The notes under the pieces were generated by a model, which made no database searches, had not been told where the DNA came from, and worked only from the letters and a program-made list of their open reading frames with translations. A stretch of 64,000 nt of DNA from Liolophura sinensis (lineage: Eukaryota; Mollusca; Polyplacophora; Chitonida; Chitonidae), in NCBI RefSeq assembly GCF_032854445.1, contig NC_088300.1, positions 28,687,608 through 28,751,607 of the forward strand, in the 5' to 3' direction. The position numbers and the translations under genes are program-made. The stretch's first letter is position 1, and each line of letters opens with the position of its first letter. Below are positions 20,963 to 57,929 of this stretch, piece after piece.

Positions 20963-23068
20963 CTAATCCTTTGTTATTGAAAATATATCCATGGGTGTGA
21001 GGTCCCTACTGCGGATGTACTGAAACTGCAGGGCCACAGGTGTAGGTTGTACCAGTAGAAAACCATTATCCCAACCTGGATAAAAGTTTGCCCTCCATTC
21101 AACATCAGGCTGGAAGCTGGGGTCATTAGGCTCTGGGTTGCCTTCAGGGGGGTGAAACAAATTGAAATGTAGATTAATGATTTGGGAAGTAATCCAACTT
21201 TGTGGAAACCTAATTAGGCCAAATGTTGTCTTCATCAATATAAATGTTGTACATGACACACAAGTCACATGTACCATGCTCTTTCTCCAACTTGTACAAC
21301 AATGCAGATTTCCTATTCACAAAAATTTCCAAAAATCCTATTCCAAGTTTAGCTCATCATAGACAAAAAGAAATAATCGATCATGTACAGTCAATGTCCA
21401 GAATTTCTTCTATGCATGCACTGCATCTGACAAAGTACCATGCATGTAGAATTCAGCCAATGGGATACTATGCTTCTGAACAAGAAAGAAAACCGTTTAA
21501 TACAATTGTCGGGTTCAGATAACAAAAACCCATACACTATATTGGCCACCAAAAATTGTCCATAAAAAATTCATTTCGTAAGGCAAATAAAAGTCATAAA
21601 ACATTACAGTGCACACTGAGATTTTCCTAGTAGGATAAAATTCTACCTTCCACACAGACCTTAAAACAGGTAAGAGGAATTGAGCTTTAGAATTAGTAAC
21701 TGATGACTGGCTGGTGTGAGATACCGGCAAATCCAGGTTATTTAATGCCCGATCTGAATTTTAGGTATTGTACATTTATTCAAGCATGACTGAGGCTGCA
21801 ATACTTGACCCAGGAAACCCTATATTCACTGTCGGCCAATCAGCATCGATTCTGTATTCCTAAAAGTTTAAAATTTTGGCTCAAATATTGTGTTTACAAA
21901 GTAAACAGTTTCTCATTGGCTGCCACCCACCTGCTTCTCCGTCGACAATGTAGATTGGAGCCTGTGGGTTATGGTAGTCCCTCCGTATCACCCGCTCTCT
22001 GTAGACAGGATAGGTTCTCTCGTAGCTGTGATCATGACCACACAGGTACACATCCACTCTCTGCTGGTACAACAAATCTTCCAGGTAGGACCTGAAAACT
22101 GGGGCGTCGTAGACACACCTGTGCTCAGCAACCAGGGAGGTACAGTACAATGGGCGGTGACCAAACACGATAATCCACGGTACACTGTCACGGTTCCTGT
22201 TGGCCTGAATCAGGTCTTGTTGCATAAAGGCAAACTGGGCGGAGCTCTGGTTAAAGCTGTGCTCCGTGGAGAAGGACAGGAAGTGGATGCCCATGTAGTC
22301 AAAGGAGAACCAGAAAGGGGACTCGGAGTCGCTGGATTTGTACGGCATTGGCAACCAGTTACGATATGCGGCAAAGTCGTACTGAGACTCGTGGTTTCCA
22401 GGAGCCGTCATGTATGGAACCCAGGAAGTAAATTTCTCTATTTGCTTCATGTACTCCACCCAGATGTAGGAGTTGTTGTGATTTCTTTTCCCGAAGTTAT
22501 CCGCATAGCTGATGTCGCCGGCATGGACAACCATCTTGATCAATCCGCTTTCTGCAAACTGCTCTAAGGCCGTGATGGTGTCGGAGCCATTGGTGGACCC
22601 CAGGTCTGCTATCAGGGCAATGTTACCCCTCTGTGTCTGGCTGACCCCTGGGGTCTGGAGCTGTATGCTGTACACAGGGCTCCAACCATAGTTACTGTCT
22701 CCACACTGGTAGTTCACTTGGGTATACCCATCTGGTTGAATGGGCAGCTCAGCTACCACACTGTTCAAGGTCATATTAAACATTCCAGCAGTGTAGGTGT
22801 AAGCCTCTCCTCTGGCGGTGTGGTTAAAGTTGGTTGAAGAGGTGCCATACTTACACCAGGGATTGAACTTTGTATTATCGGGTCCATGGGGGACAGGGTT
22901 TAGCCAGGTATACCGCACAAACCCCTCACCCCACAAGGCAACATGGACTCCCTCCACAGGATTAGAAATTTTCTCCCTTTGAGTTCCCTTTGTTGACAAA
23001 TCTTTAGTAAATACTGCGTCCACTAACCCCAGAGCCAGTACCATGAAACATACACTTATCTTTACCAT
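20963..23068 (-). CDS. ACP7: Purple acid phosphatase, ACP7-like, secreted (2 coding exons)
   Basis: Predicted metal-dependent acid phosphatase of the secretory route. Exons on the minus strand: 23068-21931 and 21141-20963, joined with donor GTGGGT and acceptor GAAG in phase 1; 438 aa. Residues 1-19 form a signal peptide. An N-terminal beta-sandwich domain (about 37-140) precedes a metallophosphoesterase domain (about 148-380). All PAP metal-ligand motifs are present: D155 in IADLG, GDISY (184-188), GNHE (224-227), FGHRP with H304, and GHDH (344-347). The C-terminal segment comes from exon 2. The ATG is the first in frame and begins the signal peptide. The gene is convergent with ENTPD and follows DHX15 on the same strand. 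The intron holds a MITE copy. Family assignment is firm; orthology to vertebrate ACP7 is inferred from length and motifs. Confidence 0.93.
21676..21862 (-). mobile_element. Second, more diverged copy of the 181-bp MITE
   Basis: Its reverse complement aligns with 19709-19889: the middle reads GCTTGAATAAATGTACAATA then CCTAAAATTCAG, against GCTTGAATAAATGTCCTGTA then CTAAAATTCAG. The ends are degraded versions of GATTCTGTATCCCT and ACTGGCTGGTGTGAGA. It lies inside the ACP7 intron. Confidence 0.75.
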
Positions 23069-25481
23069 TTTGACTACAATTGAGCTGTCGTTCAGTTATT
23101 TCCTCACAGATCCCTTACACCGTAATACACTTCCTAAAAAGCATGTACCTCTTCGCTAATACAAATAGCTAATAATTCAAATATCTTAAATATGTCATCT
23201 AAACACAACACATACCTGGTCTTCCTTTCAACCTATTTCATAAATGATTAGATATATTTTACAAATCACAGCACTGTTTTGGGATACCTGTTGTACATTG
23301 CCCCTTGACATTGGCAGCTTATCTGATGTCATAAACGAGAATAACTGCGTATCCACAAAGTGCAAAGTGTTATCAATGAGGATAACAAAACTGATCAATG
23401 TTGGTGAAACTGATTAGCCCCAGGAGCATATCTTTACCTAAATCTATTCAGACATGTACCTGTTTTTTTGTCTTCACACAGCTCAGATATAATTGTACAA
23501 ACAGATTTAAACTGGCTTCATGACTTACTTGCTTTTCTTCTTAAAAGATAACACTTGTAGATAGCAGCATATATGGATCATGCACATTTCATTTTGCTTT
23601 ATATTTTTTTAAAAATAAAATACATTATGGCATCTGTGCTTTATAATTCACCTCTGGCCTTCATGTTAGTTTATGTACACTGGAATAGCGAAAGATCTGT
23701 ACACCTTAACTTCCGCCAATATTGTTCTTTATAAGTGAGTCTCTGTATTATGTATATATTATACTGGTGAATAAAAAAAAAACCTCAACCAATCAATCAA
23801 TAGCAAAGTTCAATGCTTGGCTTTAATTATTTTCTATTGATTTTTGTTCCATGCCATACTAAAGATTTCTCACTGAAATGTTTGCAGTCAGTTTTATGTG
23901 AAGCCTGGGGTAGGGAAACAACCTTTGGCAGGCTTATACTGAAGAACTACCCCAACTGTAAAAGATCAGTGGTCTTGGGATAGTGGAAGACTGCATTAAC
24001 AGCACAATAAGCACTGTCTACTGCTTATTGCCATCAAGGTCTCATTAAGTGACAGCAGATGAATCTACAAAGTCCCTGAACAATGTTGGGATTGAACCCA
24101 CGCCAAGTAGTCAGGTGTTTAACACTGAAGCGCTGTGTCATATTCCATGTCATGCTGAAAAAGATGTATTTCATGAATGCTAAATACCATATATATTTTT
24201 TTACATGTCCAATAGCGTCAGTTGACATAAACATACACACACCGTATTGGTGGAAAACAAACGATGTTCACTGAACTGAGGACTGTACAGCCACACTAGC
24301 ATGGTCGACTGCTTCTGGTCTCCAATATCCCACAATCAGTAAAAACGGGGAGAATCCCTGTCCAAGTGCTAAAGATGAGTCAAATCATTTGTAACTGGAC
24401 TCATTAGAACAGGTAAGACTTGGTCTATGCAAGAAACAAAACAGATGTCAAAAAATTGAACTAGTTTTGATGATGGAATGGCAATCACCTATGCAAGATC
24501 ACCAGATTTATTGTGAAAATAGAGGCATGTACAGTGTGTATGTGACGCAAGCCGCCCACATCATGCAGGTTGACAAAGGTGTAACAATATTGTACTTAAC
24601 TACACTGTATCAAAGATTGTACAAATATTCCAGCAAAGTATTCACAGACATGAAAAAGATGTATGACAGACACAGTGCTATTGTGTTACACCATTGCACA
24701 TTTTGTTAATAAATATAACAGGACTCCTATTTAATCCATTGCTGAAGTGCTTCAAGGGGCGCTTGCCATGGGAGTTTCACTCCTCCATGATCTAACAAGA
24801 TACAAAGATTCCACAAAACTTCACAAAGCTCACTCCTAATTCATGCAAATCACTTTTCTAAAATATACACTGGTAATGACTGGGCACATTTTTTTGAAAT
24901 ATATGAGAATAATTTAGTATAACTGTAGGTAAGGTAATGTTTAGTCATTCCGTATAAATTCCAGTCACTAAATGCATCGGTCGCCATAAAATATCTTGAA
25001 TCTCCCACAGCAAGATGCACACGACCCACAGTTGGTGACATGATGGGAGGGATGCATGGTCTGATGGTTTGATCTGGCAGAGAATGGAAAAGTTGCTTTC
25101 AGGAATCATGGACTGTCCTTAAACGAAGAACCAACAGCACTTTTCAGACTAACCCTGACAATTCAGTATGGGTAATAAGAGGCATATTGCATACAAGAGG
25201 GCCAAAACACCAAGCAGAAAAGCTCAGCTGTGGTAACACAGAGCAGTGATCAACAAATGTAGTCAGTGCTTAACTGTAGTACACTACTTACAAACTCTGC
25301 AAGACTAACACACTTTACACAAGTTCTGTGGATTTCAAAGTCACTGTAAGGAAATCTGGTATTTTCCCCTGCCTCATTTCAGTCTCAGTTTCTGGTCCTA
25401 TAAAATAGCATGTGGTTTGTATATGTCTGCTACAAGCAAATGTTCATATCCCTAACTACATGTAACTGGTCACTTGGCTCA
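23069..25481. other. Spacer between the ACP7 5' end and the DHX15 3' end
   Basis: No convincing gene is seen. The right part should hold the DHX15 3' untranslated region; minus-strand poly(A) signal candidates are at 24729-24734 and 24507-24512, about 750 and 970 bases after the stop. The left part should hold the ACP7 promoter, which I could not define. A tRNA-like fragment sits near 24070-24125. Confidence 0.4.
24070..24125 (-). repeat. tRNA-like SINE head fragment
   Basis: The reverse complement has CGTGGGTTCAATCCC, which fits an RNA polymerase III B box. The A box part is not clear and no tRNA fold is evident, so this is probably a SINE relic. Confidence 0.35.
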
Positions 25482-37459
<11,978 letters not shown>

Positions 37460-37819
37460 TGTGACCGTTTATCACAGTTCAATAATTCACCCAAATATTG
37501 AACTATGGCTTCTTCTATTTTTTCTTCCCTTGTGCGGGAAATGGCGATGGATGAAACACCTTGATCCCAAGGAGATTTCCTGTTTGTGTTTCGAGAATGT
37601 AATACGTAAACACAAGGGAAATTACGCGTTTTTTCATGAATTTAGCTCATGTACTTAAGTTCAAATATCTCGAATATCAAATTTATCTATCAACAGAAGA
37701 TCGTTCTCGCGAAATATGAGTGTTTTCAAAGTATCTACATGGGTTTAAGGTAAACGGAAAAGGCAATGCGGAAGTTGGTGGCCACGTGGGTTTGTTGGGG
37801 GTTAACGCAGTGGGAAGAG
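37460..37819. promoter_or_regulatory. Shared bidirectional promoter of DHX15 and DDX56
   Basis: This 360-bp gap separates the DHX15 ATG (minus) from the DDX56 ATG (plus), so both promoters and 5' untranslated regions must fit here unless an upstream non-coding exon exists. No TATA box is in a clear position. Visible housekeeping-type motifs are GCGGGAAA (37534-37541, E2F-like), ATGGCG (37541-37546, YY1-like), TCTCGCGA (37705-37712, the core of the TCTCGCGAGA promoter motif) and a CACGTG E box (37783-37788). Motif presence is seen; binding is inferred. Confidence 0.7.
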
Positions 37820-40800
37820 ATGGCAGGCACTTCAGATGAGAGCACAAATGTATTGGGTTTTCATGAAATGGGACTGGATGACCGAATTTTGAAAGTGAGA
37901 TGGTGGTAGAACATTCAGTAATTTCTTGTGTCATTATGAAGTGACTGTCGTGTCGCGGAGTAACTTCATGTAGTATTTTCGCTGTAACGCCTAGCTCATA
38001 CATGTAATGATGTAGCTGCCTGTTGATTATATATCGTAGTTGATGTAGCATGTCAGTGTGCTTTTGTCATATATAGTACAGAACATTTTACGTCACCTCT
38101 TTTAGATTAGTCCTGTTTTCCCTCAGTCCATCTAGATAGACTCAGTGTGCTATTTCAAAATTCTGACATTCATTGTAACCCAGAGTCCATCAACGCTTCT
38201 CAAAAACATGGCACATATTTCAAACTCCCATCCCATTCCCACCTCCTCTGCTCATTTATACGTTATGTTATTGTGGAATCTCAAATATTTATTTATTCAT
38301 TTGATTGGTGTGTTACGCCATACTCACGAATATTTCACTTATACGACAGCGGCCAGCATTATGGTGGATGGAAACCGAGGAGCATCTGCAGGCTGCTGGC
38401 AGACCTTCCCATGTGCAGCCAGAGGGGAAGCCAGTGTGAGCTGGACTTGACATCCCAGCAACAGGTGAAAGGCTCTTGGGCCATTAAGCAATGCTGGTGT
38501 GCTAACCCCCTCGGTCATGGAGTCCCCCGAATCTCTAATAATATCCTCCTAATTCACTTTCCTTACTGATGAAACTAATTAACTCGCTGTGTGGTGGACC
38601 CATTGACTGCTTGAACTTTGGGAGTACCAAGTGCCTCGCTGTCAACAGCCATTTTGAAGTGTCATGTGGCAGTCTTTTCAGTTTGAAATGCAGTTTTGGT
38701 ATTGAAATCCTCAAGAAAAGTATTACATTTCGATTGCCATCTGCAAGAACAACTTCAATCTTCCTAATTCAATCCAAAATGGCATAAAAAAGAACTTGTA
38801 TTGTTAGGGTGCAGTGAGTGCAGACCTCATTGAGAATGGTTCCATCGAGTTGGAGTGCGCAAATATGTGGCGATTTGTTTGAGAGTCGGCGATGGATGCA
38901 GTGTTACGATAAATGTCAGAATTTTAAAATGGCACAATGAGTCCATTCAGATAGACTATCTGAATCAGTCATTCCTCTGATTTTTTTTCTTTCTTGTTTT
39001 GATACCTGGTACATGATTTTCATACTCGTGTATATGTGTTAGTGTTATGAATCATGCTGCTTAACAGACTTCAGTTTTTGAAAGGGCAGCTAAATTTAAA
39101 CTATGAGCTGACTTCACTAAAATCAACAAGGACACTGACAGGCCTCATTTCAATTAACTCCTTGTCTCATGAACAGCTATGACGTAACGTGAGGTAAATT
39201 TTTAATTGATTTATTTGATTGGTGTTTTTTTCCTAATACTCAAGAATAAGTGGGACCTCACCTGCTGAATGCAGTGTGTAGCTAGTGTCACAACCGTGGT
39301 AACAATATGTAGAAAAACATGACATCAACCAATCAGAGTCTCAGATCTGAAGTCTCGTGTTTTTCAGGTTAGGTAGAATGAAGGAGTTCACTGAAATTGT
39401 ACATTTGTTGTACATATACAATACAGTACGTGCATTTTCTTTAGGGGATATTTAAATTTTCTCTGAATTGCTGAAAACAATTATACTAACTATATTTTGG
39501 GCTTTGCAAATCAGTTTACAAAATGAAAGTCTGTCTTACAGGTATGCCTTTAACTACCTAATACCACTTTAACTTTGAAACTCTCCATTAGCCATTTTCA
39601 GAGATCCTACATAACCACACCTAAGCAAATACCATTTGAATGGGAGAGTGACCCCAAATGTCTGAGAGGAAATACGTTGCAGCCTTACTTGCTGACTTAC
39701 CTTGTCAGGAGAACACCAACAACCATAAATGCTGTGTCCTGTATGTCAGAATTAAGGACAATTAATAGTGAAGGTGCCTGACTTGCTTATACACTTTGTT
39801 GTTATAATCTGGGAAAATATGCCCTTGTTTGAAAATTATTATCGTTTTATCCCCATTTTGACGTGACAAATCTCAGAACAAGTTTATGAGATATTAAATG
39901 CTCCTCACCTGAGTAGTTTGACACATTAATTTAGGTTTCTCTCAGTATTTCTTGTGATTTTGCTCTTCTATTTTTTCCTACTGATATGTTGCACATAATA
40001 TGTCTGTACTCACCTAAAAAGTTTTTGTTTGTGAAAGGCTGTTGCTAAACTAGGCTGGTCGTCCCCAACACCAATCCAGGAAAGAGCAATTCCTCTTGCC
40101 CTCGAGGGGAAGGATGTTTTGGCTAGAGCACGAACAGGTTCTGGAAAGACAGCAGCTTTCGTGATTCCAGTTGTCCAAAAAATCCTTCTGGCAAAACAAG
40201 TATGTAAATCCAGTTTATATTCAAGAAAGAAATTATTTGTTCCGGAAATTATAAGTCTCAATAACATTACAGGTAGACATATTGTTTGAGGCAAAATTTT
40301 TTTTTTTTTTTTCTGACAGTCTCTTTAATGTAGACAGCCATAGAGCAATGTGTTCACATCATTATACAGTCAGTCTATTATTGTGTCTTGTTATAGTGGC
40401 TTTCCCTGATTGTAGACAGCCTCAGAGCAGTGTGTTCACATCATTGCACAGTCAGTTTATATTATGTCTCATGATCATGACTTTCCCTGATTGTAGACAG
40501 CCACAGAGCAGTATGTTCACTTCATTACACAATCAGGCAGTTTATGTTGTGTCTCATGATCATGACTTTCCCTGATTGTAGACAGCCACAGAGCAGTGTG
40601 TCCGAGCACTGGTCATGACCCCATCCAAAGAACTCTGTAAGCAAGCCTATAACAACATACAGGTAAGACTTTGCTGTTGAGGCTGTCAGGCCAAATTATC
40701 TTGAAAAACAAGAGTTTCAGTAGAATGCAGCTACAGAAATGGGGGTGATTCCACAGTGCCTTTTTGGACTTCAGACAAAATCTGAAGTATGGTATCAAAT

Positions 40801-43800
40801 TTTGACCTCCTAATGAATGCTGACTTAAGACAAAGGTTTTCAAATTTCAAATTTGGTTTTGTGGAGGCAGTGTCTGTTTAGTCAACTTATTCCATGGTTA
40901 GATTATTACATCCAATGGGACTATTGTGATAAAAGGTGATTTCACGTTTGGTCTAAAGGTCAACTGAATAAGTGCTACAGTGAATATACCAATGAAATGT
41001 TTCGTTATCTGTCAAATTTATTTTTATTCCACATGCTTTATGTTGATTTTATGATTTCAGGAATTGACCAGTTATTGTTCTAGAGAAATTAAGTGTACAG
41101 ACATATCCCCCCATGTTCCTCTATTACAACAGAAGTAAGTTCCGCTTTCAGTTTTTCACCACATTTGCCCAATGCCAAACTAAAGTGTTAAGCAATGTAA
41201 TTTGTTCCAGTGCTTCCAGATATCTTTCTGTGTGTAAAAACGGTGATTAGGCATAAAATATAAAGCTATTTGGAAAATTTAAGACAGTTAAAGGCTGCAA
41301 AATGGACCGTTTAGAGAAGGGTAAATGTAGGCTTCTACAAAATTCTCATTTACAGCTGTAGGCCTATTGGTCATTTAATGTTCGTGTTGTTGATGAGTCC
41401 TGTTCTCAGAACACTCAGTGTGGATAGCTGTCACAAAAGTTTTAGTCAGACCTTTACTTTTGTATTAAGTTAAGGCGACACAAGTTTCAATTTTTTGTTT
41501 TATAGGCTCTAAAAAATCCAAAATTAAAAATCAACCTTCTTATATTGTTCGATATCCAAGTTTTTATGATTTTCCAGGGTTTCCAGTCATGTAAATATGT
41601 CTTCAACAGTGAACATAACTCTTATTGATCACATTTACAATAATTATGGGCATCTGAAATAGTTTCTCAAGAAGTGATTTAGAAGAGGCGAACAGGGAAG
41701 AAAATTGATGAGGTGAATGTTGGTGAACTTAAGAAGTTTCTAAAGGAAAGAGGTGTCATTTGTGCCTCTTAGAGACAAGTGATTGGCAAATTAATGTCAA
41801 CAAAGGTTAGTTTACATTTTTCCTCACATCACACAGCAGGACTGTTTTTACCTTTAACAGCAAAAGAGTTCAGACTTGAAACTCCCCTGTTAGGATACTG
41901 TCTGTAGTTCTTTCTGTTGTCTACAGGCCACTGTTAATGGAGAAGCCTGATATTGTTGTTGGCACCCCCAGTCGAGTATTGGCACACTTGACTGCTGGAA
42001 ACCTCAGTGTAAAAGAAACTATGGAGCTATTGGTGATTGATGAAGCAGATCTGCTCTTTTCATTTGGATATGAACAGGATGTGAAGAAACTGCTGGAGTA
42101 AGTAATGGCTTAAGAGAAACTTATGAGAAAACAGGCTTGCTATAGTCTTGCTAAATAAAATTTCTCGTTACATGTATGATGTTTGTGGTATTTAGTTTTT
42201 CACTATACTCTCCTGAACTCCTCTCTATTCAGTTAAACCTTAGCTGTAGCAGATGTCTACAACACAAATTAAACGTTTTTGGTGTTAATGTTCCAGAAAT
42301 TCTATTAAGTTATGCAGTCAGTTTTCTCTTTGTCATGTATCATTGTCGTGAAAGCTCACTAAGTTAGCTTGTTGCATAAACCTCTGGTGTTGAACCAAAG
42401 GCAGAAGACAGACTGCTATTCAAACCACCACACCAAGTGGTTTGAAAAGGCAAACTTTATGGATATCCCTCTGGGTTAAAAACATATGTAGCTGACACCC
42501 AATGCCCCATCAGTATTAGCAGACTAATGGCTATATGGGTATGAGCATATGCCAAATGATGAACTTTATCATGAAGGGTACAGGTGAATCTAGTAAGACA
42601 TGTACCTAAAAATAAGTGACGTAGGCAAAGTACAGTCGTAAATTGAAATTTCTCAGATCTAAGAGAACACAGTGGATTGTAAACCTAGAATATTCTCCCA
42701 TTTGCCCCTAAAGTCTTTGAAGTTTGAAACAAACAAAATGTTTATGGGATTTACTTTGTAGACATCTTCCAAAAATATATCAAGCCTTCTTGATGTCAGC
42801 AACGCTAAGTGAGGATGTGAAAGCCCTGAAGAAGTTGGTTCTGCACAACGCCGTGAGTATGTAGAAGTAGTTTTACAGATGGATACTAAACAAGACTCCA
42901 TGTTACCAAGTATATGGATGCGTCAGTGCAAGTCACAGAACTGCTGTATAGGACAGATGATGTTGAGACAGAGGAATATTTGGCTGGCATACAAACTGCT
43001 CATGTATTATTCATCAATTATCAACTTATTTTCCTCTATATTAATATTTGAAAATGTGCTGGCCTTATTTCAAAAACTCTACATAGAATTACGTAGACAT
43101 AACCACTGTGAAATATGAGTTCAGGGAGCCGGATTACCTTTAATCTGAAACATTAATCTGTTACTTAAATAACCTAAAATTTCTCCCCAAAATACATTTT
43201 TAGAAGCAAATAATGACTTCTTAAAATTTCCTGAAACTTCAATAATACACCAGTATTATTTCAGTAGGATATCATACTACCTTGCAAAAAAAAAGAAAAT
43301 TCTAATCTCTCAGAATCAGGTAAAATGTGTAAATTTTGGGCCACTTAAGTGTAATGGCAGTTGATGAATAGGAATATCTTCATGGATTATAAAAGCTACT
43401 GTCTGAATCAGTTATATATTTGGCTAATTGTTATTTTCTTTACAGGTGATATTAAAATTGGAAGAATCACAACTGCCAGAGGCCACACAACTTACTCAGT
43501 ATCATATCAAGTATTGCATATTGCTTCATTCAATTAAAAAAGCTAATTAACATGTATTTTATTTTATTCACAGTATATCTTATCTAAAAGTGTAGGTCAT
43601 AACTTCTGTTATTTAAATTTTGATATCACAGACTAAAATGAGAAACACATGATAAGCTGGTGTTACCAGTATTTGTTGGAGTTCTTTTGCCTTGCCTACC
43701 GTTGTCATTGTTTTCTACATGTAAGGAGAGGTTTGGGGGTCAGCCCTGTTTTTTATGTTTTTTTTATATATGTACATGATGTAGACATATCTTGACATGT

Positions 43801-46800
43801 AGACAAGAGGGAAAAATCACAGTGAACCCAAAATGTTTCATATCTGTTTCAGATGCGAAGATGATGATAAATTTGCTTTAATCTACACATTGTTGAAACT
43901 ACGATTAATTAGAGGGAAATCCATCATTTTTGTCAATTCTGTAAACAAATCATACAGGTAAGTTTCACTTTTAGAGCTGTATGATACATTGTCTAAAATA
44001 GCATTGTGTATGTAAGTTTTAGCGGTCTACTCTTCGTAATATACATGTAGCATTTTTTAGACCATCAGATTGAAACCGGATTCAGTGTGTCGGCGTCAGT
44101 TTACTGATTTGTGTGTTTCATTGGTGTTTTATGCCTTACTCCCCCTTACCGGGTAAAGCCCTGGCAATTCGCAAACTACTGTGAGCATGAAGCCAGCATA
44201 AGCTGGACTTGAACTCACAGCAACCGCAGTGGTGAGAGGCTTCTGGGTCATTGTGCGGCGCTAGCATGCTAACCTGTAGGCATCATTTTGACTGTACTCT
44301 AATTTAGGGACCAAATTCAATCTTTATACAACCCGCACCATCCTTAAATTAGATATTTATTTGAGAGTGTCATCCCTTACTTGTATCTAGCGTTATACTG
44401 TGTCCGCTTTAATTGACAGGTTGAAGCTATTTTTAGAACAGTTTGGGATTCTGTCGTGTGTATTGAATTCAGAACTTCCCACAGCCTCCAGGTAGGTTGG
44501 CTCTTTTGTTTGATGAGATGAACATGATACATGTAGATGTATGTACCAAACCATTGTCTTATGTAATTCCATAATAGTGTTTATGTGGTTACATTCATAT
44601 TTTCTTTTGTGAAGTCTCCTCAGTAGAATGCAATTAATAGCAGCAATATGATTCATCAAGCCAAATCAAAGCACGGCTCTTAGTGACCGTGTTGTACGAG
44701 GCAACTCTGTCACTTAATATTTGACATTTGAATATTTTCATGCTTGACCCCACTTTGGCCGTTTTACTCGTATTGTGGCGACTGCATGTTTGAATACAGC
44801 GGCAGCTTCATAGTTTATTTCAACTCACAAATCTGACCTGATATGTACATTGTTTCAATAATCTGGCATAAAATGTCCATGAGATCTGAATATATATCAT
44901 GTGGTAGCACAGCTATCAATTGAAGTGTGAGCCAAATCAAACACAGCACTTTTGTTTATCATGGGATGTTTTCTGTATGACATCTTATACCAGAAATCCC
45001 AACTTGTGAACAGATATATTAACTCTATAGTATATCCTGTACTGGTACGTAATAATGTTACAGTAGCGGAGTTTTGAGTTGAAACTCTTTTGTCACTGAA
45101 AATAAATATAGAGTATGACTTGCCTATAATGTAAGGCAACTTTTGTTGACATTAACTCACCAATCACCTGTCTGGCCATGTTGTAGATAATTAAATGACA
45201 TTGCTTTCCTTCAGGAACGTCTTGAGATCACAAGCATTCAGCACCTCCATCCTTTGTCTCTCTAAATAACTGTAAATAACTCTTTGTGAAACTTTGACTT
45301 TCATGTTGAAGTAAATGTAATGGAAGTTAGTTGTGGAACATTTCTGACACATCACATGGTACTGTACGATGTTTTTACCTTCATTGTGAACTCAAAACTG
45401 AGCCATTTCTTGATCTTGAGCATTGAAGATTTATTTATTGTGCCACAGATGCCACATTGTGACACAGTTCAACGATGGTTTGTATGACATCATCATAGCG
45501 TCTGATGAAACCATGTTATCAGATCCCCAGGAAAAACCTCAGCACATCAAGAAGGGCAAAAGGTAACTTGCACATGTGTGAAAAATAATTTATTTATAGA
45601 TGAAAGTATACTGTGAATTTTCAACCTTTTCAAAGTTACACGCTTTTATTCAGTGGAATTTATGCATGCAGTTGTTGTGAAAATGATGCTGAACTGATGT
45701 GTTTGTGTCATTAAAGATGCAAGCTTCATAAAACTGTGCATATTATTTCTCTACACCCCATGGGTCTGTCAGAATGTTTCATAATATTGGTTACAGAAGT
45801 GCTTGAAAAGGTTGAAGAATTAGGGTATTACCATTGTTGGTTGTGGGTTTCCCCCGGGCTCTGCCCGGTTTCCTCTCACCATAATTCTGGCCACGGTGGT
45901 ATAAGTGAAATATTCTTGAGTACGGCGTAAAACACCAATCAAATAAATGAATAAATAAATTACCATTGTATGTGTTGCAGGACAAGTCAGCAGGTGAAAA
46001 TACTTCTAAACATTTATATTGTAGCTGTAGGACAATTGTGCATATGAAAATACATGTAGGTCAATTCTGTATATGAAAATACATGTAGGTCAATTCTGTA
46101 TATGAAAATACATTAGGTCAGTTCTGTATATGAAAATATATGTAGGTCTATTCTGTATATGAAAGTACATGTAGGTCAATTCTGTATATGAAAATACATG
46201 CAGGACAATTCTGTATATGAAAACCCATACAGGAGAATTCTGTATATGAAAATATGTGTAGGACAATTCTGTATATGAAAATACATGTAGGTCAATTCTG
46301 TATATGAAAACACATACAGGAGAATTCTGTATATGAAAATACGTGTAGGTCAATTCTGTACATAAAATACATGTACACGCGTAAATGTTCATGTAATTAT
46401 TTTGAAGCGATGCACAACATTTGTAGACAGAAATGCATAATGGCAGACATAGCTATTAAAACTGTTGTATGACATGTCAGAACTCTACCTGCTGGTATTG
46501 CTCACAAATAATGTTCTCTTTTGCCCTGCAATTTATCCTGAAGTTTCTTGAGAGGCTTATGGGTTATTGTGGCATGCTGACACGCTAACTACCTTGGTCA
46601 TGGAGGCCCCTTTAGATGGCAGAAAACATTACTGTAACATCCTGTGAACACATGAATACATTTATAGAAAAGAGTACCACGACTCTTAGTAAAGGTTATA
46701 CCTTAATTCATTCCTTCTTCTTTTGCAGAGTGGTGATAGGTTAAATATTTACCTGCTATCTTTTTTCACAGAATTCATAAAAAGGATGAAGAATATGGTG

Positions 46801-47734
46801 TATCTCGAGGGATAGATTTCCGGCATGTCTCAAATGTAATCAACTTTGATTTTCCAGTCACTGTTGATGCGTATATACACAGAGTAGGCAGGTAAGCTCG
46901 GGTGTATGGAGTGGTATAATATCTACCAAGAAAGTTGACACAAAAATACTGCCAACTGATACCCCGAAGGTTAGGTGAGCAGAGAAATATGGAAAGCTGT
47001 GAGTTAAATTCATGTTATATACATACTGAAGTGAAACTGAAACTAAAGTTGGTGCTGTGTAACATTTGTTGAAGATCACTTCATATCCACACCTGTAGTG
47101 TGCATATCTGTCACGTGGGAAAGTTTTGTCAGTAAATTGCTAAAAGTCAGTGGTTTATGCCTGTTACCTTGGTTTCCTGAACCCATCAAACTAACCAAAA
47201 ATCAGTGAAAATTCTTGAGCATGGCATGAAGAAACAATCAGATAAATAAATTAAATGCATTTTTACTGGTTACTTGACATGTAATGGTGTGTTATTGATA
47301 TGTTGACAAATAATGTTGTGTTGTCGTGGACATGTTGACAGAACAGCTCGTGGGGACAGTGAAGGGACAGCCTTGTCGTTTGTCAACATGAAAGAGATGG
47401 CGCAGCTAAAACTGGTGGAAGATGCTTTGTCAGATTCCTATGGTAAGTCACGTGGCCAGTCTTCCTTGACCTCTGCTCTGATTCATATCAGAAAACTGCC
47501 ATATCAGCTCTCTACACAAGAACCATATGTGCTCTGAGTGCTCAATTAGAAATTACTTTGTTGTATGAAAAATGCATTTGCATGTTGTATATCTAATTGG
47601 AATTGGCTATTAGAAGTGCACTAAAAAGTTTTAATTTCATGCTGGATGGAGAATCTGTCAGATTGTGATGTAAGCTTACATGTTTGTATGTATGTAAGTA
47701 AGTATGTAAGTAAGTAAGTAAGTAAGCAAGTATG

Positions 47735-47777
<43 letters not shown>

Positions 47778-50700
47778 GCATACATGTATGTATGTATGTA
47801 AGCATACAAGTATGTATGTATGCATACATGTATGTATGTATGTATGTATGTGTGTATGTATGTATGTATGTATGTAAGCATACATGTATGTATGTTTGTA
47901 TGTATGTATGTATGTATGTATGGATGCATTTTTAGCTCTTGTATAGTTATATACATTGATTGAAGGTTAAGCTTTTTCATTTAGCTCTGTGGCCTGAGGT
48001 ATGGTGTGTAAATGCACATACTCGGATGGGAGATTAAGCTTTATTTTCAGCTCTTGTATATTGGGCTATCATACATGGATTAGAGGTTAGGTTTTTTTTT
48101 TGCTCCCAAGTTTAAGGTATGGTGTGTAAGTGTACATTCTCAGAGGGCAGGTTGAGTTTTTTTTTTAGCTCCTGTGTAATGGCAATCATACATGAATCTC
48201 CAGCATACAGCAATAGAAAGTGTTTTTCGTTTGTGGGTTTTTTTTTGTTTTTTTTTTCTTTTTTCGCCTATGTACATCTACAAAGGGCCTACTGATGGAA
48301 GGTTGAACCGTTTTATTGGTTTTTGTTTTATAGGCTTTGTGATGATTTCTTATGATTTTAATTCATAGACTTCAATTCAAAAATTTACCAGTTATATAAT
48401 TGTTTTCTGTATCAAACAGGCTCTCTAGAAATTAAGCCTCTTTGCAGGGCAATATACATTTTCTTGTATACAGGGTTTCTGTGACTTGCTTATGAGATTT
48501 ATGGACTTTGCCAGACTAATCATTTTTGTAATCAAGAAAAGCTTCATATAGGTCTACAGTTTTTAGGCACATGCCTACCTATGTGTAGGAGGACAAGAAG
48601 GCTATTGTACTCCTCTGGCGATTTGAACATTTTCCTGTTTTGTGGACATCATGCTCACATTCAGATTGACTTCATTCTGTTCTGTAAACATGGATTTCTA
48701 CAAGCCTTGCTTTTAGGGCTACAGTTTCTAATGCGGTCACTCATCTGGATAAGCTTTTTTTCTCTCTTTACCAGATTTGTAGAGTGTAAGAGTTTACCTT
48801 GGTGCATACTAATTTATCCGGTATGCACGGTATCTGTAGAAAGATTCCTACATCTGTATTATTGCAGCCTGTGACACTATCAAATGCATGTGCATTCCTG
48901 TACTATGATGAAATGTTTAAACCACAAACATAGACAGTGACAATTGTCAGCTGAGTATTTGCTCAACCAATTAGAAGGCTGCAGTGGCCACCCATATTAC
49001 ACAGATAGCCAATCATGGGAAGTGATTTGCTTATCAAAGACCACCCCACCCCAAATTTTTTTTACTATCATTGCTCAGTATTTGCTCAGCCATTCACAAC
49101 ATTGGAATTGTTCACAGATTGCCGCATGAAGTTCACAATTTGCATATCACAGACCACTGCCTCATTTTGTGCTCGAACTCCCCACAATGACAGCTTTACC
49201 ACCAAAACACTTCACAACTTTTATCTTTATTCTGATTCAATTGTCTACTTGACTGCTAAAGCAGTTGAGCTGGTGGGATTCTCTGAATGCCTTGTTAAAG
49301 TCTTTTTGTATGACCCAACCCGGTTTTGATCTCAGATCTCCTGATGTCGAGGCAGGCTGTCTAACCATTAGGTTACCGAAGCGGTCTAAGCATACAAGTA
49401 TCTTACATCTGTACGGAGGCGTAATTGATCAAAGACAAATAATCTGAGGTAGGTTCTTGATCTTATTAAATGCAGTCGTCTAACCTGTACAGAGAATTAT
49501 CAGTATGCTAATGTTCAGTGTATTCTGTGTGCAGGTGACGGGGAGGATATGTTCAAACCATTTCAATTTAGAATGGAGGAGATCGAGGGCTTCCGGTACA
49601 GAGCCAAGGTACGTCCTTTCTTAGACACAGAAAAGATTTTACAATATAAAATGAAACAGTTACATATGTAACTCTCTTTCACTTCACTGTGTATGTAGAG
49701 ACATACATTTTAATTTAAAAATTTTGTAGGATTAATACTTAATTGCTTTATACAGATGAAATGGTCAAGTACTTGTCAGCCTGGTGTCAGTAATTTTGCC
49801 GGTTTTTTTTTAAAAAAAACGTGAAAGATATAGTTGGAATCTGCATGAAATTGCCATTAAGATATTAATTACTTTATTTAAAGGTGGACAATTCCATTTC
49901 ATCTCACTGAAGGGATTCAGTACTTGTCTGAAAACCCATCAAGACTTTGAAAAGTGCTATTCCGTTTATTCATGAAATACATTGATCAAGTGCATTCAGT
50001 CACTGCATTCAATAATTAAATGTAGTATTGTACCTTCCAAGGATTTGGATCAAACTTGTTAACACCTGTATTTCAGGATGCATTAAGAGCAGTTACAAAG
50101 GTGGCCATCAGAGAAGCTCGTTTGAAAGAAATCAAACAAGAATTGTTGAACTCCAAAAAGTTAAAGGTAATCTTGTTTTTTGTGTAGGCATTTTGAAAAT
50201 GCAAATTGAAGGTTCCACATTGTGTGTTTATGATGTGGGTGACAATCTAAATTCAGTTCTTGTCATCAAAAAACAACCATGTTTTTCTTATGTGGCCATA
50301 AAAAAAATCATGCACCATTTTTCATAAAGAAAAGGAAGTGATAATTACTCATAGGGGGCTTTTAACAACCCCTTACATCCCTAAAATAATAGGTAACTGT
50401 TTCTGTATTAGAAGAGAATGGTGTGATTTTACACAGATCAGAAATGTCTTACCTATGGTATCATACCCATGGTTATCAGCTTATAAGCATTTATTTATTT
50501 ATGTTGTTTTATGTCGTAGTCAAGAATATTTCACTTAAACTTATAGCGGCCAGTATTATGGCTAAGCTCAAAGGAAACTCACAACCATCTGCAGGTTGCT
50601 GCAGACCTTCCCGCGTGCAGCTGGAGAGGCAGACATGAGTGGGAGGCTTCAGGGTCATTGAGTTTACAAGTACATGCAATAGTTTAACATGCAGATGTTT

Positions 50701-53700
50701 TCCTAAGTTGATCCTCATCGTATCACGTCTCGCGTGCAGACCTTCCCGCGCGCAGCTGGAGAGGCAGACATGAGTGGGAGGTTTCAGGGTCATTGAGTTT
50801 ACAAGTACATGCAATAGTTTAACATGCAGATGTTTTCCTAAGTTGATCCTCATCGTATCACGTCTCGCGTGCAGACCTTCCCGCGCGCAACTGGAGAGGC
50901 AGACATGAGTGGGAGGCTTCAGGGTCATTGAGTTTACAAGTACATGCAATAGTTTAACATGCAGATGTTTTCCTAAGTTGATCCTCATCGTATCACGTCT
51001 CGCGTGCAGACCTTCCCGCGTGCAGCTGGAGAGGCAGACATGAGTGGGAGGCTTCAGGGTCATTGACTTTACAAGTACATGCAATAGTTTAACATGCAGA
51101 TGTTTTCCTAAGTTGATCCTCATCGTATCACGTCTCGCGTGCAGACCTTCCCGCGTGCAGCTGGGGAGGCAGACATGAGTGGGAGGTTTCAGGGTTATGA
51201 CTTTACAAGTACATGCAATAGTTTAACATGCAGATGTTTTCCCAAGTTGATCCTCATCGTATCACATGTATGCTATGTTGGTAATTAACACCTCGTGCTC
51301 TCTTCTGTTTTTAGTCCTATTTTGAAGATAACCCCAGAGACTTACAACTGCTGAGACATGACAAAAGTCTTCATACAGTCAAGAATCAGCCACAGTTAAA
51401 AAATGTACCAGATTACCTAGGTATGCGCTTTTTTACGACTTCCAAGATGTAAGCAAATGAGGGGTGTGTCTTAGGTGTGCAGTTTTGATGTTTGGCTTTG
51501 AATTGAACGGACAAGAATTCGGTTCAGTCCCGCCTTAGACAAGAGATTTTCATGACAGCACTGAACAGTGACAGCACTTGCTTGTCCAGTTAGGTGACCT
51601 AACATGAAGTTTGTTGGAAATCACTTGCTGTTATGTCCTAAATGTTGAACTTGGCTCTGTGGTTTGGAAAGTTTGTCAGTTACTCACCAAATTTTGGTGG
51701 TTTACTCCAGGCACTCTGGTGTTCTGTGCTCATGAAACGAACCATGGTATAATAACATTATGTATTCATCATTAATCGTGTTAACCACAAGTTAATGAAT
51801 ATATGCAATTGTGTGGTAAATATGAACTGACTAACTTGACATTGACAGATATCTGTTTAACCTGTGAATTATACGGAGAGGCTTATTATGCAAATTAATG
51901 TGGTTAAAAATGTAGCTATTCAGCGTATTGTGTGTTGTTAGTGTAAAATTACAATTGCTAAAGCATGTTTACTGGTATCGAAAAAGTATTCTAATATTTG
52001 TATAGCTTTCTTATTCCCTCTTTGACTTCATTTAATTCCTAATTTCATAAGTGATATTGAGGAAAAAGTCAGCAGTTGATGGCATATGTTGTGAGAGTCC
52101 TCTTGTGCTTTGTTGTCAGTTCCCCCCACCCTGAAGGGTCTCAGCAGAAATGGCGGTCGCAATAAATCTCGCAGGTCAGGACAGTCTAATGATAGAAAAG
52201 CACCTGCCATAACCCAAGGTCAAAGAAAATTCCAGGTAAAGGACTGTGTGACCTCATTCTGAAGTATGGTAGAGATGGCATCATTGGCTCTTGTGTTCAA
52301 ATATTTCCAAAAAATTCAAAACAGAACACTTATTTCTTGGATGAAAAATGGCAGTTGCTGTTGTTGTTGAATGGAGAGCCACCCTGTTCTGTCTCACTGG
52401 TTCTGTTGCTATATGCTGTATTTCACTTGAAGTATAGCATTTTTCAAGTAACACATTTCACTTGATTGATTCATTCACATTATATTGGCATTATGAGGTG
52501 TTTTTTTCGAAGTTTGAGTAATTTCTTGTTAGAAAAACTTTGGTTGGCATCAATAGTGTCATAATAAAGCCTTTATGTGCTTCTGAAAATGCATTTTTAA
52601 TCTCAAAACCTTAGGTGAAATTTGGTATATAATACAGGATATATTGCAAGAGACCATCAAATGACAACTACACCCGCGTATATTTAAGATTACGGGCATC
52701 TGTTGGCTATCTTGGATTTTTTTTCTTTTAGACATTAGCTCATACTGAAAATGGCTATTTGCTTATTACTGGTACCACAATGACAGGTGACCTGTGAGCT
52801 ACATGTAAAGTCCATGTAAAGTTTTAGGTGTCTCAAAGATTATCTTGAAATACTCAAAATTTTTTGAATTCTGTTACATGTACTGTTGATGATTACAATG
52901 CTTTAACATACGGAAACATGTAGTTGTTTATCTACTCTGGGACATGGATGTATGGTGCACACTGAAAACTGCTATTTGGCTTATTCTGGACATGGATGTA
53001 TGATGTGCACTGAAAACTGCTATCTGGCTTATTCTGGGACATGCCTGTATTATGCACACTGAAAACTGCTATCTGGCTTATTCTGGGACATGCATGTATG
53101 ATGCGCACTGAAAAGTGCTATCTGGCTTATTCTGGGACATGCCTGTATTATGCACACTGAAAACTGCTATCTGGCTTATTCTGGGACATGCATGTATGAT
53201 GCGCACTGAAAAGTGCTATCATTTTTATTTTGGGACATGGATGCATCTTGCGCACCGGAAACTGCTATCTGGCTTATTCTGGGACATGCATGTATGATGC
53301 GCACTGAAAAGTGCTATCAGGTTTATTTTGGGACATGGATGTATCTTGCGCACCGGAAACTGCTATCTGGCTTATTCTGGGACATGCATGTATGATGTGC
53401 ACTTAAAAACTGCTATCTGGCTTATTCTGGGACATGCATGTATTATGCACACTGAAAGGTGCTATCAGGTTTATTTTGGGACATGGATGTATCTTGCGCA
53501 TCGGAAACTGCTATCTGGCTTATTCTGGGACATGCATGTATGATGTGCACTTAAAACTGCCACCTGGCTTATTCTGGGACATGCATGTATGATGTGCACT
53601 TAAAACTGCTATCTGGCTTATTCTGGACATGCATGTATTATGCACACTGAAAGGTGCTATCAGGTTTATTTTGGGACATGGATGTATCTTGCGCACCGGA

Positions 53701-56224
53701 AACTGCTATCTGGCTTATTCTGGGACATGCATGTATGATGTGCACTTAAAACTGCTATCTGGCTTATTCTGGGACATACATGTATGATGTGCACTTAAAA
53801 CTGCTATCTGGCTTATTCTGGGACATGGATGTATGGTGCACACTGAAAACTGCTATCTGGCTTATTCTGGGACATGCATGTATGATGTGCACTTAAAACT
53901 GTTATCCGGCTTATTCGGGGACGTGGGTGTGTGATGTGCATGGAAAACTGCTATCTGGCTTAATCTGGGACATGGATGTAGCATGCGCACTGAAAACTGC
54001 TATCTGGCTTATTCTGGGACATGCATGTATGATGCGCACTGAAAAGTGCTATCTGGCTTATTCTGGGACATGCCTGTATTATGCACACTGAAAACTGCTA
54101 TCTGGCTTATTCTGGGACATGCATGTATGATGCGCACTGAAAAGTGCTATCATTTTTATTTTGGGACATGGATGCATCTTGCGCACCGGAAACTGCTATC
54201 TGGCTTATTCTGGGACATGCATGTATGATGCGCACTGAAAAGTGCTATCAGGTTTATTTTGGGACATGGATGTATCTTGCGCATCGGAAACTGCTATCTG
54301 GCTTATTCTGGGACATGCATGTATGATGTGCACTTAAAACTGCTATCTGGCTTATTCTAGGACATGCATGTATTATGCACACTGAAAGGTGCTATCAGGT
54401 TTATTTTGGGACATGGATGTATCTTGCGCATCGGAAACTGCTATCTGGCTTATTCTGGGACATGCATGTATGATGTGCACTTAAAACTGCCACCTGGCTT
54501 ATTCTGGGACATGCATGTATGATGTGCACTTAAAACTGCTATCTGGCTTATTCTGGGACATGCATGTATTATGCACACTGAAAGGTGCTATCAGGTTTAT
54601 TTTGGGACATGGATGTATCTTGCGCACCGGAAACTGCTATCTGGCTTATTCTGGGACATGCATGTATGATGTGCACTTAAAACTGCTATCTGGCTTATTC
54701 TGGGACATACATGTATGATGTGCACTTAAAACTGCTATCTGGCTTATTCTGGGACATGGATGTATGGTGCACACTGAAAACTGCTATCTGGCTTATTCTG
54801 GGATATGCATGTATGATGTGCACTTAAAACTGTTATCCGGCTTATTCGGGGACGTGGGTGTGTGATGTGCATGGAAAACTGCTATCTGGCTTAATCTGGG
54901 ACATGGATGTAGCATGCGCACTGAAAACTGCTATCTGGCTTATTCTGGGACATGCATGTATGATGTGCACTTAAAACTGCTATCTGGCTTATTCTGGGAC
55001 ATGCATGTACGATGTGCACTGAAAACTGCTATCTGGCTTATTCTGGGACATGCATGTATGATGTGCACTTAAAACTGCTATCTGGCTTATTCTGGGACAT
55101 GCATGTATGATGCACACTTAAAACTGCTATCTGGCTTATTCTGGGACATGCATGTATGATGTGCACTTAAAACTGCTATCTGGCTTATTCTGGGACATGC
55201 ATGTATGATGTGCACTTAAAACTGCTATCTGGCTTATTCTGGGACATGCATGTATGATGTGCACTTAAAACTGCTATCTGGCTTATTCTGGGACATGCAT
55301 GTATGATGCGCACTGAAAAGTGCTATCAGGTTTATTCTGGGACATGGATGTATCTTGCACACCGGAAACTGCTATCAGGTTTATTCTGGGACATGCATGT
55401 ATGATGTGCACTTAAAACTGTTATCTGGCTTATTCTGGGACATGCATGTATGATGCGCACTGAAAAGTGCTATCAGGTTTATTCTGGGACATGGATGTAT
55501 CTTATCACACTTAAAACTGCTATCTGGCTTATTCTGGGACGTGGGTGTGTGATGTGCATGGAAAACTGCTATCTGGCTTATTCTGGGACATGGATGTAGC
55601 ATGCGCACTGAAAACTGCTATCTGGCTTATTCTGGGACATGCATGTATGATGCACACTTAAAACTGCTATCTGGCTTATTCTGGGACACAGAAAATTGTG
55701 TATGAACAGATTTTGAGCTCTTCAGGCTAATGACTTCACTGCAAAATAATTCTGAGCAAACAAAATTCAGAGATACACTGTAGAAATGTACATTCCTTAC
55801 ATACAGCTCACAGCTAGATATCCCTTCTGCTATCTCATTGCAAACTTATGCCTAATGACCAATCCAAAGATCTCAGCCAATTTTTTTTCCAATACATCTG
55901 CACCATATTTCAGGTTTTACTGTACATCTACTAAGCCATCGGGAACTTCCAAACTCCTTCCAGAGCACTCTTTTTGTTCTAGCATTTGTGTAGTATGTCA
56001 CACTTTTCATTGTGTGTGTACTCTGGAAACACTTTTGTAGCAGACAAGCACTGCAATGTTGCAAAAGAAAATGGTGTGTTTTTAACTGAAGTTTGGACTG
56101 CTGTATTTAGCCCATCATTCTCCTGTGAACTTCTTTCTTTGTATTTCAGAAGCGACAAGCAGATCCACTGAAGAGTTTCCAGTTTGCTGGCCTAAGTCAG
56201 AGTAAAAAAAAGAAAAAGAAATAA
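37820..56224 (+). CDS. DDX56: DEAD-box RNA helicase DDX56 (spliced, 17 coding exons)
   Basis: Nucleolar helicase of large-subunit ribosome assembly. Exons: 37820-37894, 40038-40199, 40582-40662, 41061-41134, 41927-42097, 42762-42852, 43446-43510, 43853-43957, 44420-44491, 45449-45562, 46772-46891, 47342-47442, 49535-49608, 50077-50166, 51315-51420, 52120-52235, 56150-56224. Phases match at every junction; 1692 nt, 563 aa, against 547 in human. Motifs: [13 protein letters not shown] leading into a Q motif (to about 39), Walker A ARTGSGKT (56-63), GTPSR (143-147), DEAD (169-172), SAT (200-202), ARGID-type SRGID, and HRVGRTAR (373-380). The conserved [14 protein letters not shown] and [15 protein letters not shown] segments identify DDX56. 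The C-terminus is a basic lysine run that fits nucleolar targeting. The exon 2 acceptor (TTTGTGAAAG) is weak. Several introns carry tandem arrays, and exon 3's acceptor lies in one. Confidence 0.96.
38283..38530 (-). repeat. SINE family A, near full length, minus strand
   Basis: On the plus strand: TTTATTCATTTGATTGGTGT, ACTCACGAATATTTCACTTA, GCGGCCAGCATTATGGTGG, CCAGTGTGAGCTGGACTTG, and a head relic ending CCCCCTCGGTCATGGAGTCC. It lies in DDX56 intron 1. Confidence 0.85.
39203..39252 (-). repeat. SINE tail fragment, minus strand
   Basis: Only TTTATTTGATTGGTGTTTTT and AATACTCAAGAATAAG remain, the reverse complement of the shared 3' tail. Confidence 0.55.
40325..40600 (+). repeat. 82-bp tandem repeat that carries the DDX56 exon 3 acceptor
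   Basis: TGTAGACAGCC followed by an AGAGCAGTGTGTTCAC-like sequence recurs with the TAG at 40331, 40413, 40494 and 40579. The fourth copy is the true acceptor and start of exon 3 (40582). The first three are decoys that would run into in-frame stops. Confidence 0.88.
41683..41805 (+). pseudogene. SAP-domain-like coding relic in DDX56 intron 4
   Basis: One frame reads [20 protein letters not shown], then a TAG at 41770, then [11 protein letters not shown]. The pattern of Leu and Lys with RGV resembles the helix-loop-helix of SAP DNA-binding motifs, which also occur in some transposon-borne proteins. A stop precedes it at 41680. It lies between DDX56 exons 4 and 5 in the sense direction and is too short and broken to be a gene. 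Confidence 0.45.
42378..42445 (-). repeat. tRNA-like SINE head in DDX56 intron 5
   Basis: The reverse complement has CACTTGGTGTGGTGGTTTG (A box-like) and TTTGGTTCAACACCAG (B box-like). No full tRNA fold was found. Confidence 0.4.
44115..44280 (-). repeat. SINE family A, internally deleted, minus strand
   Basis: Tail sequence TCATTGGTGTTTTATGCC joins closely to AAGCCAGCATAAGCTGGAC, CTTGAACTCACAGCAACC and GGCTTCTGGGTCATTGTGC. Part of the core between them is missing or altered. Confidence 0.8.
45838..45958 (+). mobile_element. 5'-truncated SINE family A with target-site duplication
   Basis: The element starts in GTTGTGGGTTTCCCCCGGGC and ends with GAGTACGGCGTAAAACACC and an (AAAT)n tail. ATTACCATTGT flanks it at 45827-45837 and 45959-45969, an 11-bp target-site duplication as made by LINE machinery. 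Confidence 0.88.
46029..46376 (+). repeat. 29-bp minisatellite in DDX56 intron 10
   Basis: About 12 units of AGGTCAATTCTGTATATGAA then AATACATGT. The minus-strand open frame rich in TYFHIQNS is a by-product of the repeat. Confidence 0.92.
46545..46612 (-). repeat. SINE family A head fragment, minus strand
   Basis: The reverse complement begins GGGGCCTCCATGACCAAGG, then TAGTTAGCGTGTCAGCATGC, the tRNA-like 5' end of family A, without the body. Confidence 0.65.
47108..47255 (+). repeat. SINE family B copy
   Basis: It has GGGAAAGTTTTGTCAGTAAA, AGTCAGTGGTTTATGCC, TTGGTTTCCTGAACCCATCA and the tail AAATTCTTGAGCATGGCATG with CAATCAGATAAATAAATT. Confidence 0.7.
47682..47930 (+). repeat. (TATG)n/(TAAG)n tetranucleotide microsatellite
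   Basis: Long runs of GTAT with TAAG interruptions in DDX56 intron 12. The open frames on both strands here (Cys-Met-Tyr-Val or Tyr-Ile-His-Thr repeats) are artefacts of a 12-base reading cycle. Confidence 0.95.
47930..49317. other. Remainder of DDX56 intron 12
   Basis: T-rich stretches and plain AT-rich sequence. No gene or well-defined repeat was recognised before the tRNA-like relic at 49318. Confidence 0.4.
49318..49390 (-). repeat. tRNA-like sequence in DDX56 intron 12
   Basis: The reverse complement reads GGTAACCTAATGGTTAGACA (A box-like), then GAGATCTGAGATCAAAACC (weak B box). It resembles a tRNA gene start but lacks paired acceptor ends, so a SINE relic or tRNA pseudogene fits best. 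Confidence 0.5.
50487..50650 (-). repeat. SINE family A copy feeding a 135-bp array, minus strand
   Basis: TATTTATTTATGTTGTTTTA, AGTCAAGAATATTTCACTTA and ATCTGCAGGTTGCTGCAGAC are family A in reverse. Its 5' part is the start of the tandem array at 50601. Confidence 0.75.
50601..51268 (+). repeat. 135-bp tandem repeat, five units
   Basis: GCAGACCTTCCCGCG recurs at 50601, 50736, 50871, 51006 and 51141, exactly 135 bp apart. Units are almost identical. Each contains a SINE piece (CAGCTGGAGAGGCAGACATG) plus about 85 bp of other sequence. It lies in DDX56 intron 14. Because 135 is divisible by 3, the minus strand stays open for 204 codons. Confidence 0.95.
51660..51748 (+). repeat. SINE family B fragment
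   Basis: GGAAAGTTTGTCAGTTACTC, TTTTGGTGGTTTACTCCAGG and CACTCTGGTGTTCTGTGC match the core of family B; the tail is missing. Confidence 0.55.
52943..55690 (+). repeat. 49-bp minisatellite array, about 56 units, with 931-bp higher-order period
   Basis: The unit is TATTCTGGGACATGCATGTA then TGATGTGCACTTAAAACTGC then TATCTGGCT. Variants (GTATCTTGCGCACCGG, GGACGTGGGTGTGTGATG, TAATCTGGGACATGG) recur in the same order 931 bp (19 units) apart, for example at 53901 and 54832. It fills most of the last DDX56 intron (52236-56149). Confidence 0.95.
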
Positions 56225-57863: not shown

Positions 57864-57929
57864 ATGCATGAAGATACTCGTATGGAGTGCTTGAGCTCCT
57901 CACAGATTGCGACCGACACGTCAAAATGA
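57864..57929 (+). promoter_or_regulatory. Upstream ORF whose stop overlaps the LRR receptor ATG
   Basis: ATG at 57864 (and again in frame at 57882) opens a 21-codon frame that ends in TGA at 57927-57929. The main ATG is 57926-57928, so the two overlap as ATGA. If the transcript starts upstream of 57864, this would tend to limit translation or require reinitiation. The transcription start is unknown. Confidence 0.5.

Follow-up and report, generated by a model that had tools for sequence, protein, structure and literature searches.

A 360-bp gap between the divergent helicase genes DHX15 and DDX56 of the chiton Liolophura sinensis, read as a likely bidirectional promoter

Two essential RNA helicase genes of the chiton Liolophura sinensis, DHX15 and DDX56, were claimed in a preliminary description of this locus to diverge from start codons only 360 bp apart, which raises the question of whether the short stretch between them is one promoter that serves both. 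In the window (the whole stretch of 64,000 nucleotides that we analysed, scaffold C6:28687608–28751607, to which coordinates refer unless otherwise labelled), the ATG of DHX15 occupies 37459-37457 on the minus strand and that of DDX56 occupies 37820-37822 on the plus strand, leaving a gap of exactly 360 bp (37460-37819), as had been claimed (Table 1). A shared bidirectional promoter for DHX15 and DDX56 is the likeliest reading of this sequence, and below we set out the evidence that points to it together with the alternatives.

In order to establish what flanks the gap, we modelled both genes in full by spliced alignment followed by manual checking. All 27 introns are of the GT-AG type, the frame is kept at every join and there are no internal stops. 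The gap separates two protein-coding genes on opposite strands. The short first exons had been said to join their next exons in the right phase, and they do: in phase 2 to position 34269 for DHX15, where the junction reads as a continuous peptide of 11 residues, and in phase 0 to position 40038 for DDX56. The human-guided alignment had also placed two N-terminal DHX15 exons (36856–36783 and 36638–36431) because the human N-terminus is longer; these were rejected as false, and the in-phase exon at 34269–34166 was preferred. The gene identities proposed earlier were upheld too. Chiton DHX15 matched human DHX15 in the PDB at 1395 bits versus 761 bits for the best human paralogue (DHX8), its best match among DEAH helicases thus being DHX15 (DHX15/Prp43), and it is 87% identical over 680 aa to human DHX15. 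In DDX56 we found DEAD and Helicase_C domains, and alignment with the human protein gave 58% identity over 529 aa, a comparison in which the full-length similarity is to DDX56/Dbp9 and not to other DEAD-box proteins; the PDB matches to this query included no DDX56/Dbp9 chain.

Table 1 Features of the DHX15–DDX56 locus, in window coordinates.
Feature	Position	Strand	Basis
DHX15 coding span, 13 exons, 728 aa, complete	25482..37459	-	spliced alignment, GT-AG check, PDB match
DHX15 exon 2, 35 residues; starts 34269	34166..34269	-	phase, splice sites
DHX15 coding exon 1, 17 residues + AG, GT donor, phase 2	37407..37459	-	in-frame stops directly upstream of ATG
Inter-ATG gap, proposed bidirectional promoter region	37460..37819	.	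ATG positions, CpG observed/expected, single CpG peak
E2F-type site GCGGGAAA (TTTCCCGC on minus), then ATGGCG (YY1 core) at 37541	37534..37541	-	
Only AG in the gap, upstream of DHX15 ATG, that scores well as an acceptor (8.1)	37687	-	
TCTCGCGA, 8/10 bases of the CGCG element TCTCGCGAGA	37705..37712	+	
Acceptor-like AG (5.1) and strong donor-like AAG/GTAAAC at 37750 (9.3), upstream of DDX56 ATG	37749..37750	+	
Possible in-frame DDX56 N-terminal extension, MRKLVATWVCWGLTQWEE, 18 codons	37766..37819	+	open frame, without homology support
ETS/GABP-type site GCGGAAGT, absent from the preliminary description	37768..37775	+	
E-box CACGTG	37783..37788	.	
DDX56 coding span, 16 exons, 553 aa, complete	37820..52262	+	spliced alignment, GT-AG check, domains
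DDX56 coding exon 1, 25 codons ending GLDDRILK, phase 0 donor; exon 2 at 40038	37820..37894	+	

Because part of the Liolophura genome is duplicated (PMC12005716), we searched the whole genome (609,464,459 bases, 632 contigs) for ohnologs and found no close second copy of the gap, of DHX15 or of DDX56, the gap sequence itself occurring a single time; a scan of viral contigs with DDX56 found no relative. Elsewhere in the genome, two loci about 17 kb apart and opposite in orientation hold long uninterrupted DEAH helicase frames (L003, G000:C10:22362245-22364125, plus strand, 1757 aa in total; L004, G000:C10:22381046-22382926, minus strand, 1579 aa in total), and L003 also has an RNA recognition motif and a weak DEAH11-like RNA-binding domain.

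The wider neighbourhood contains further genes and repeats. Downstream of DHX15 lies a purple acid phosphatase-like gene in a single open frame (21884-23095, minus; Metallophos plus N-terminal domain), and downstream of DDX56 a CpG-rich leucine-rich-repeat protein gene with one open frame of 1115 aa (57872-61216, plus), while 13084-16336 (plus) probably holds the C-terminal exons of a nucleoside phosphatase of the GDA1/CD39 type (the Pfam match at 13084-13353 being weak and below cut-off). Large tandem arrays are found just downstream of DDX56 (52936-55688) and within its 3' part (50600-51265), with a 49-bp unit in 56 copies and a 135-bp unit in five copies at 97% matches. Intron 1 of DDX56 holds a dispersed repeat (38280-38530) with 4,807 first-look candidates genome-wide, of which 40 were scored and were mostly 77-86% identical. 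Elsewhere in the window a similar peptide-like string turns up in translations (for example at 15680-16003 and 45794-46060), which suggests one abundant short repeat.

The gap itself carries the sequence signature of a putative housekeeping promoter, namely a CpG peak, a skew switch and clustered E2F-, ETS-, E-box- and CGCG-type motifs. Its CpG observed/expected ratio is 1.12 versus 0.45 for the window, a level reached by 1.1% of 360-bp windows, and the profile forms one peak of ~1.2–1.3 across the gap and drops to 0.2–0.5 within about 800 bp on either side. With a G+C content of 39%, the gap is thus CpG-rich relative to the genome, yet no classical vertebrate CpG island. It is also TATA-less (TATAAA is absent), and no Rfam RNA was found in it at gathering thresholds. 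The GC skew changes from negative on the left to positive on the right, and its cumulative minimum at 37529 places the switch between the two start codons; the contrast ranks among the top 0.4% of positions in the window, although several further positions show an equal or larger one and the gap is not unique in this respect.

The E2F-like and CACGTG motifs reported earlier were found in the gap, at 37534 (GCGGGAAA) and 37783, respectively. The third reported motif, TCTCGCGA, is present at 37705 but is followed by AA and is hence an incomplete TCTCGCGAGA: the sequence reads TCTCGCGAAA, without the final GA of the ten-base palindrome. Certain imperfect palindromes of this CGCG element are reported to be active (PMC6192621). 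Genome-wide there are 4,202 TCTCGCGA sites, and the idea that this is an abundant chiton promoter word was dropped, as ~3 full palindromes TCTCGCGAGA among the first 100 sites listed gave no sign of enrichment. BEN-domain genes are present in the genome, one of which may be the chiton BANP. Using a panel of 11 promoter motifs (mostly vertebrate-based), we found four in the gap, and at least four were reached in 0 of 5000 first-order Markov shuffles and with 0 of 2000 CpG-matched permuted panels, a significance that is overstated because the panel was partly chosen after the gap had been read. Nowhere else in the window does a 360-bp stretch hold four panel motifs. A published list of factors with enrichment in human bidirectional promoters includes E2F, GABPA and MYC (PMC10887517).

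Taken on its sequence, the gap is probably a compact housekeeping promoter, rich in CpG and lacking a TATA box, that fires both ways, probably from two divergent core promoters. One of these would lie close to the E2F/ATGGCG cluster (about 75-90 bp upstream of the DHX15 ATG) and the other close to the ETS/E-box cluster (about 30-50 bp upstream of the DDX56 ATG); the CGCG-type element would separate them, and all would share one predicted region of open chromatin. Ubiquitous, growth-linked factors of the E2F, ETS/GABP and E-box types may then drive both genes in proliferating tissue. We infer that the transcripts of both genes would start inside the gap, with shared activity and co-regulation; if both starts do fall inside the 360 bp, they are less than 1 kb apart.

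The motifs form two clusters ~230 bp apart, each close to one ATG, a layout that would also suit two independent core promoters, each with its own elements, that came to abut by chance after a chromosomal rearrangement and work without meaningful co-regulation. This alternative draws further support from a survey of bidirectional genes, in which co-regulation hardly explained the retention of pairs and partners were often functionally unrelated (PMC3403606). Against it, one CpG peak and one skew switch span the entire gap, rather than two peaks, and starts less than 360 bp apart would be expected to share one nucleosome-free region. We therefore regard an accidental abutment of this sort as possible, though unlikely.

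How far the spacing itself calls for explanation can be judged from a chance model in which 28,010 genes are placed uniformly at random in 609.5 Mb. Under this uniform placement any given gene would meet a divergent start within 360 bp with a probability of 0.008, which corresponds to ~115 pairs genome-wide; for a single gene such spacing is unusual, yet each genome should contain it many times. Divergent pairs closer than 1 kb account for 11% of genes in human, 18% in worm and 32% in fly, with enrichment of the spliceosome pathway among divergent-pair genes in all eight species studied (PMC3403606), and of the human housekeeping genes analysed, ~23% have another gene starting divergently within 300 bp (PMC10887517). 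That a spliceosome helicase should be paired with a divergent housekeeping gene is in line with expectation, and the arrangement is of a common kind for animal housekeeping genes, with no new mechanism. In human, DHX15 and DDX56 are on different chromosomes, from which it had been suggested that the pairing may be lineage specific. This is little informative, since the identity of divergent partners is reported not to be conserved and to be generally reshuffled between invertebrates and vertebrates (PMC3403606); chiton genomes are, moreover, highly rearranged (PMC12005716). It is doubtful that the pair is an old, selectively kept chiton or mollusc unit that would couple DHX15 (Prp43, splicing/ribosome) to the nucleolar DDX56 (Dbp9) through one promoter.

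The promoter would not be common to the pair if one gene, more likely DDX56, started at a distant non-coding exon, and we scanned the gap for splice acceptors with a scoring matrix built from the 27 acceptors of DHX15 and DDX56, in which 26 of the 27 true sites score above 1. Within 225 bp of the DHX15 ATG there is no plausible acceptor (no AG scores above −0.6), the one candidate for this gene being the AG at 37687 (8.1). On the DDX56 side, the AG at 37749 scores in the range of true acceptors (5.1), and its use would place the ATG in an exon that begins with a 70-nt leader. These scores make a distant leader exon unlikely for DHX15 and leave a non-coding leader exon, spliced to the candidate acceptor at 37749, possible for DDX56. 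Given the promoter-type composition and motifs of the gap itself and the lack of an acceptor close to the DHX15 ATG, we consider a distant start for either gene highly improbable. The position of the DDX56 start codon bears on the size of the gap as well: an in-frame ATG lies upstream at 37766, with no stop before 37820, and could, if used, shorten the gap to 306 bp. Human DDX56 has just a few residues ahead of LGFEHMGLD, which favours 37820 as the predicted start over 37766.

An assembly or annotation artefact as the cause of the adjacency has next to no probability, since we found no point in its support, the assembly is HiFi-based (609.5 Mb, 632 scaffolds and 28,010 protein-coding genes; PMC11068029; first published as Liolophura japonica and later corrected to L. 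sinensis, PMC12441733), the window is free of N bases, and the gap is unique and flanked by intact genes with correct splice phases.

If the pair, read as served by a shared bidirectional promoter, is common to molluscs, it would offer a natural example of two RNA helicases, each with a role in ribosome assembly, under joint regulation, and if limited to chitons, it would exemplify how housekeeping genes come to lie side by side in fast-moving chiton genomes; in both cases it is one more instance of a well-known class. A literature search for both gene names with "bidirectional promoter" returned no paper joining them, and a broader search returned nothing on the pair, which is apparently undescribed.

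Compared with known systems, the locus most resembles the bidirectional promoters (<1 kb) of animal housekeeping genes, being divergent, CpG-rich and TATA-less, with E2F/ETS/MYC-type motifs and presumptive starts inside the gap (PMC3403606, PMC10887517), and including a spliceosome-class gene in the pair (PMC3403606). It differs from them in its gene combination, which we did not find described, and in a gap of 39% G+C. A second likeness is to promoters with the CGCG element (TCTCGCGAGA), which drives divergent transcription in reporter constructs and whose conservation has been shown in vertebrates (PMC6192621): the TCTCGCGA core likewise lies within a TATA-less divergent gap, although the gap matches 8 of the 10 bases only and the core occurs 4,202 times in the chiton genome. 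Finally, the RecQ helicase genes have gained divergent partners, each independently (PMC2688522), and thus also place a helicase gene opposite a divergent neighbour; the chiton pair belongs to other helicase families, and in contrast to the RecQ pairs both of its partners are helicases.
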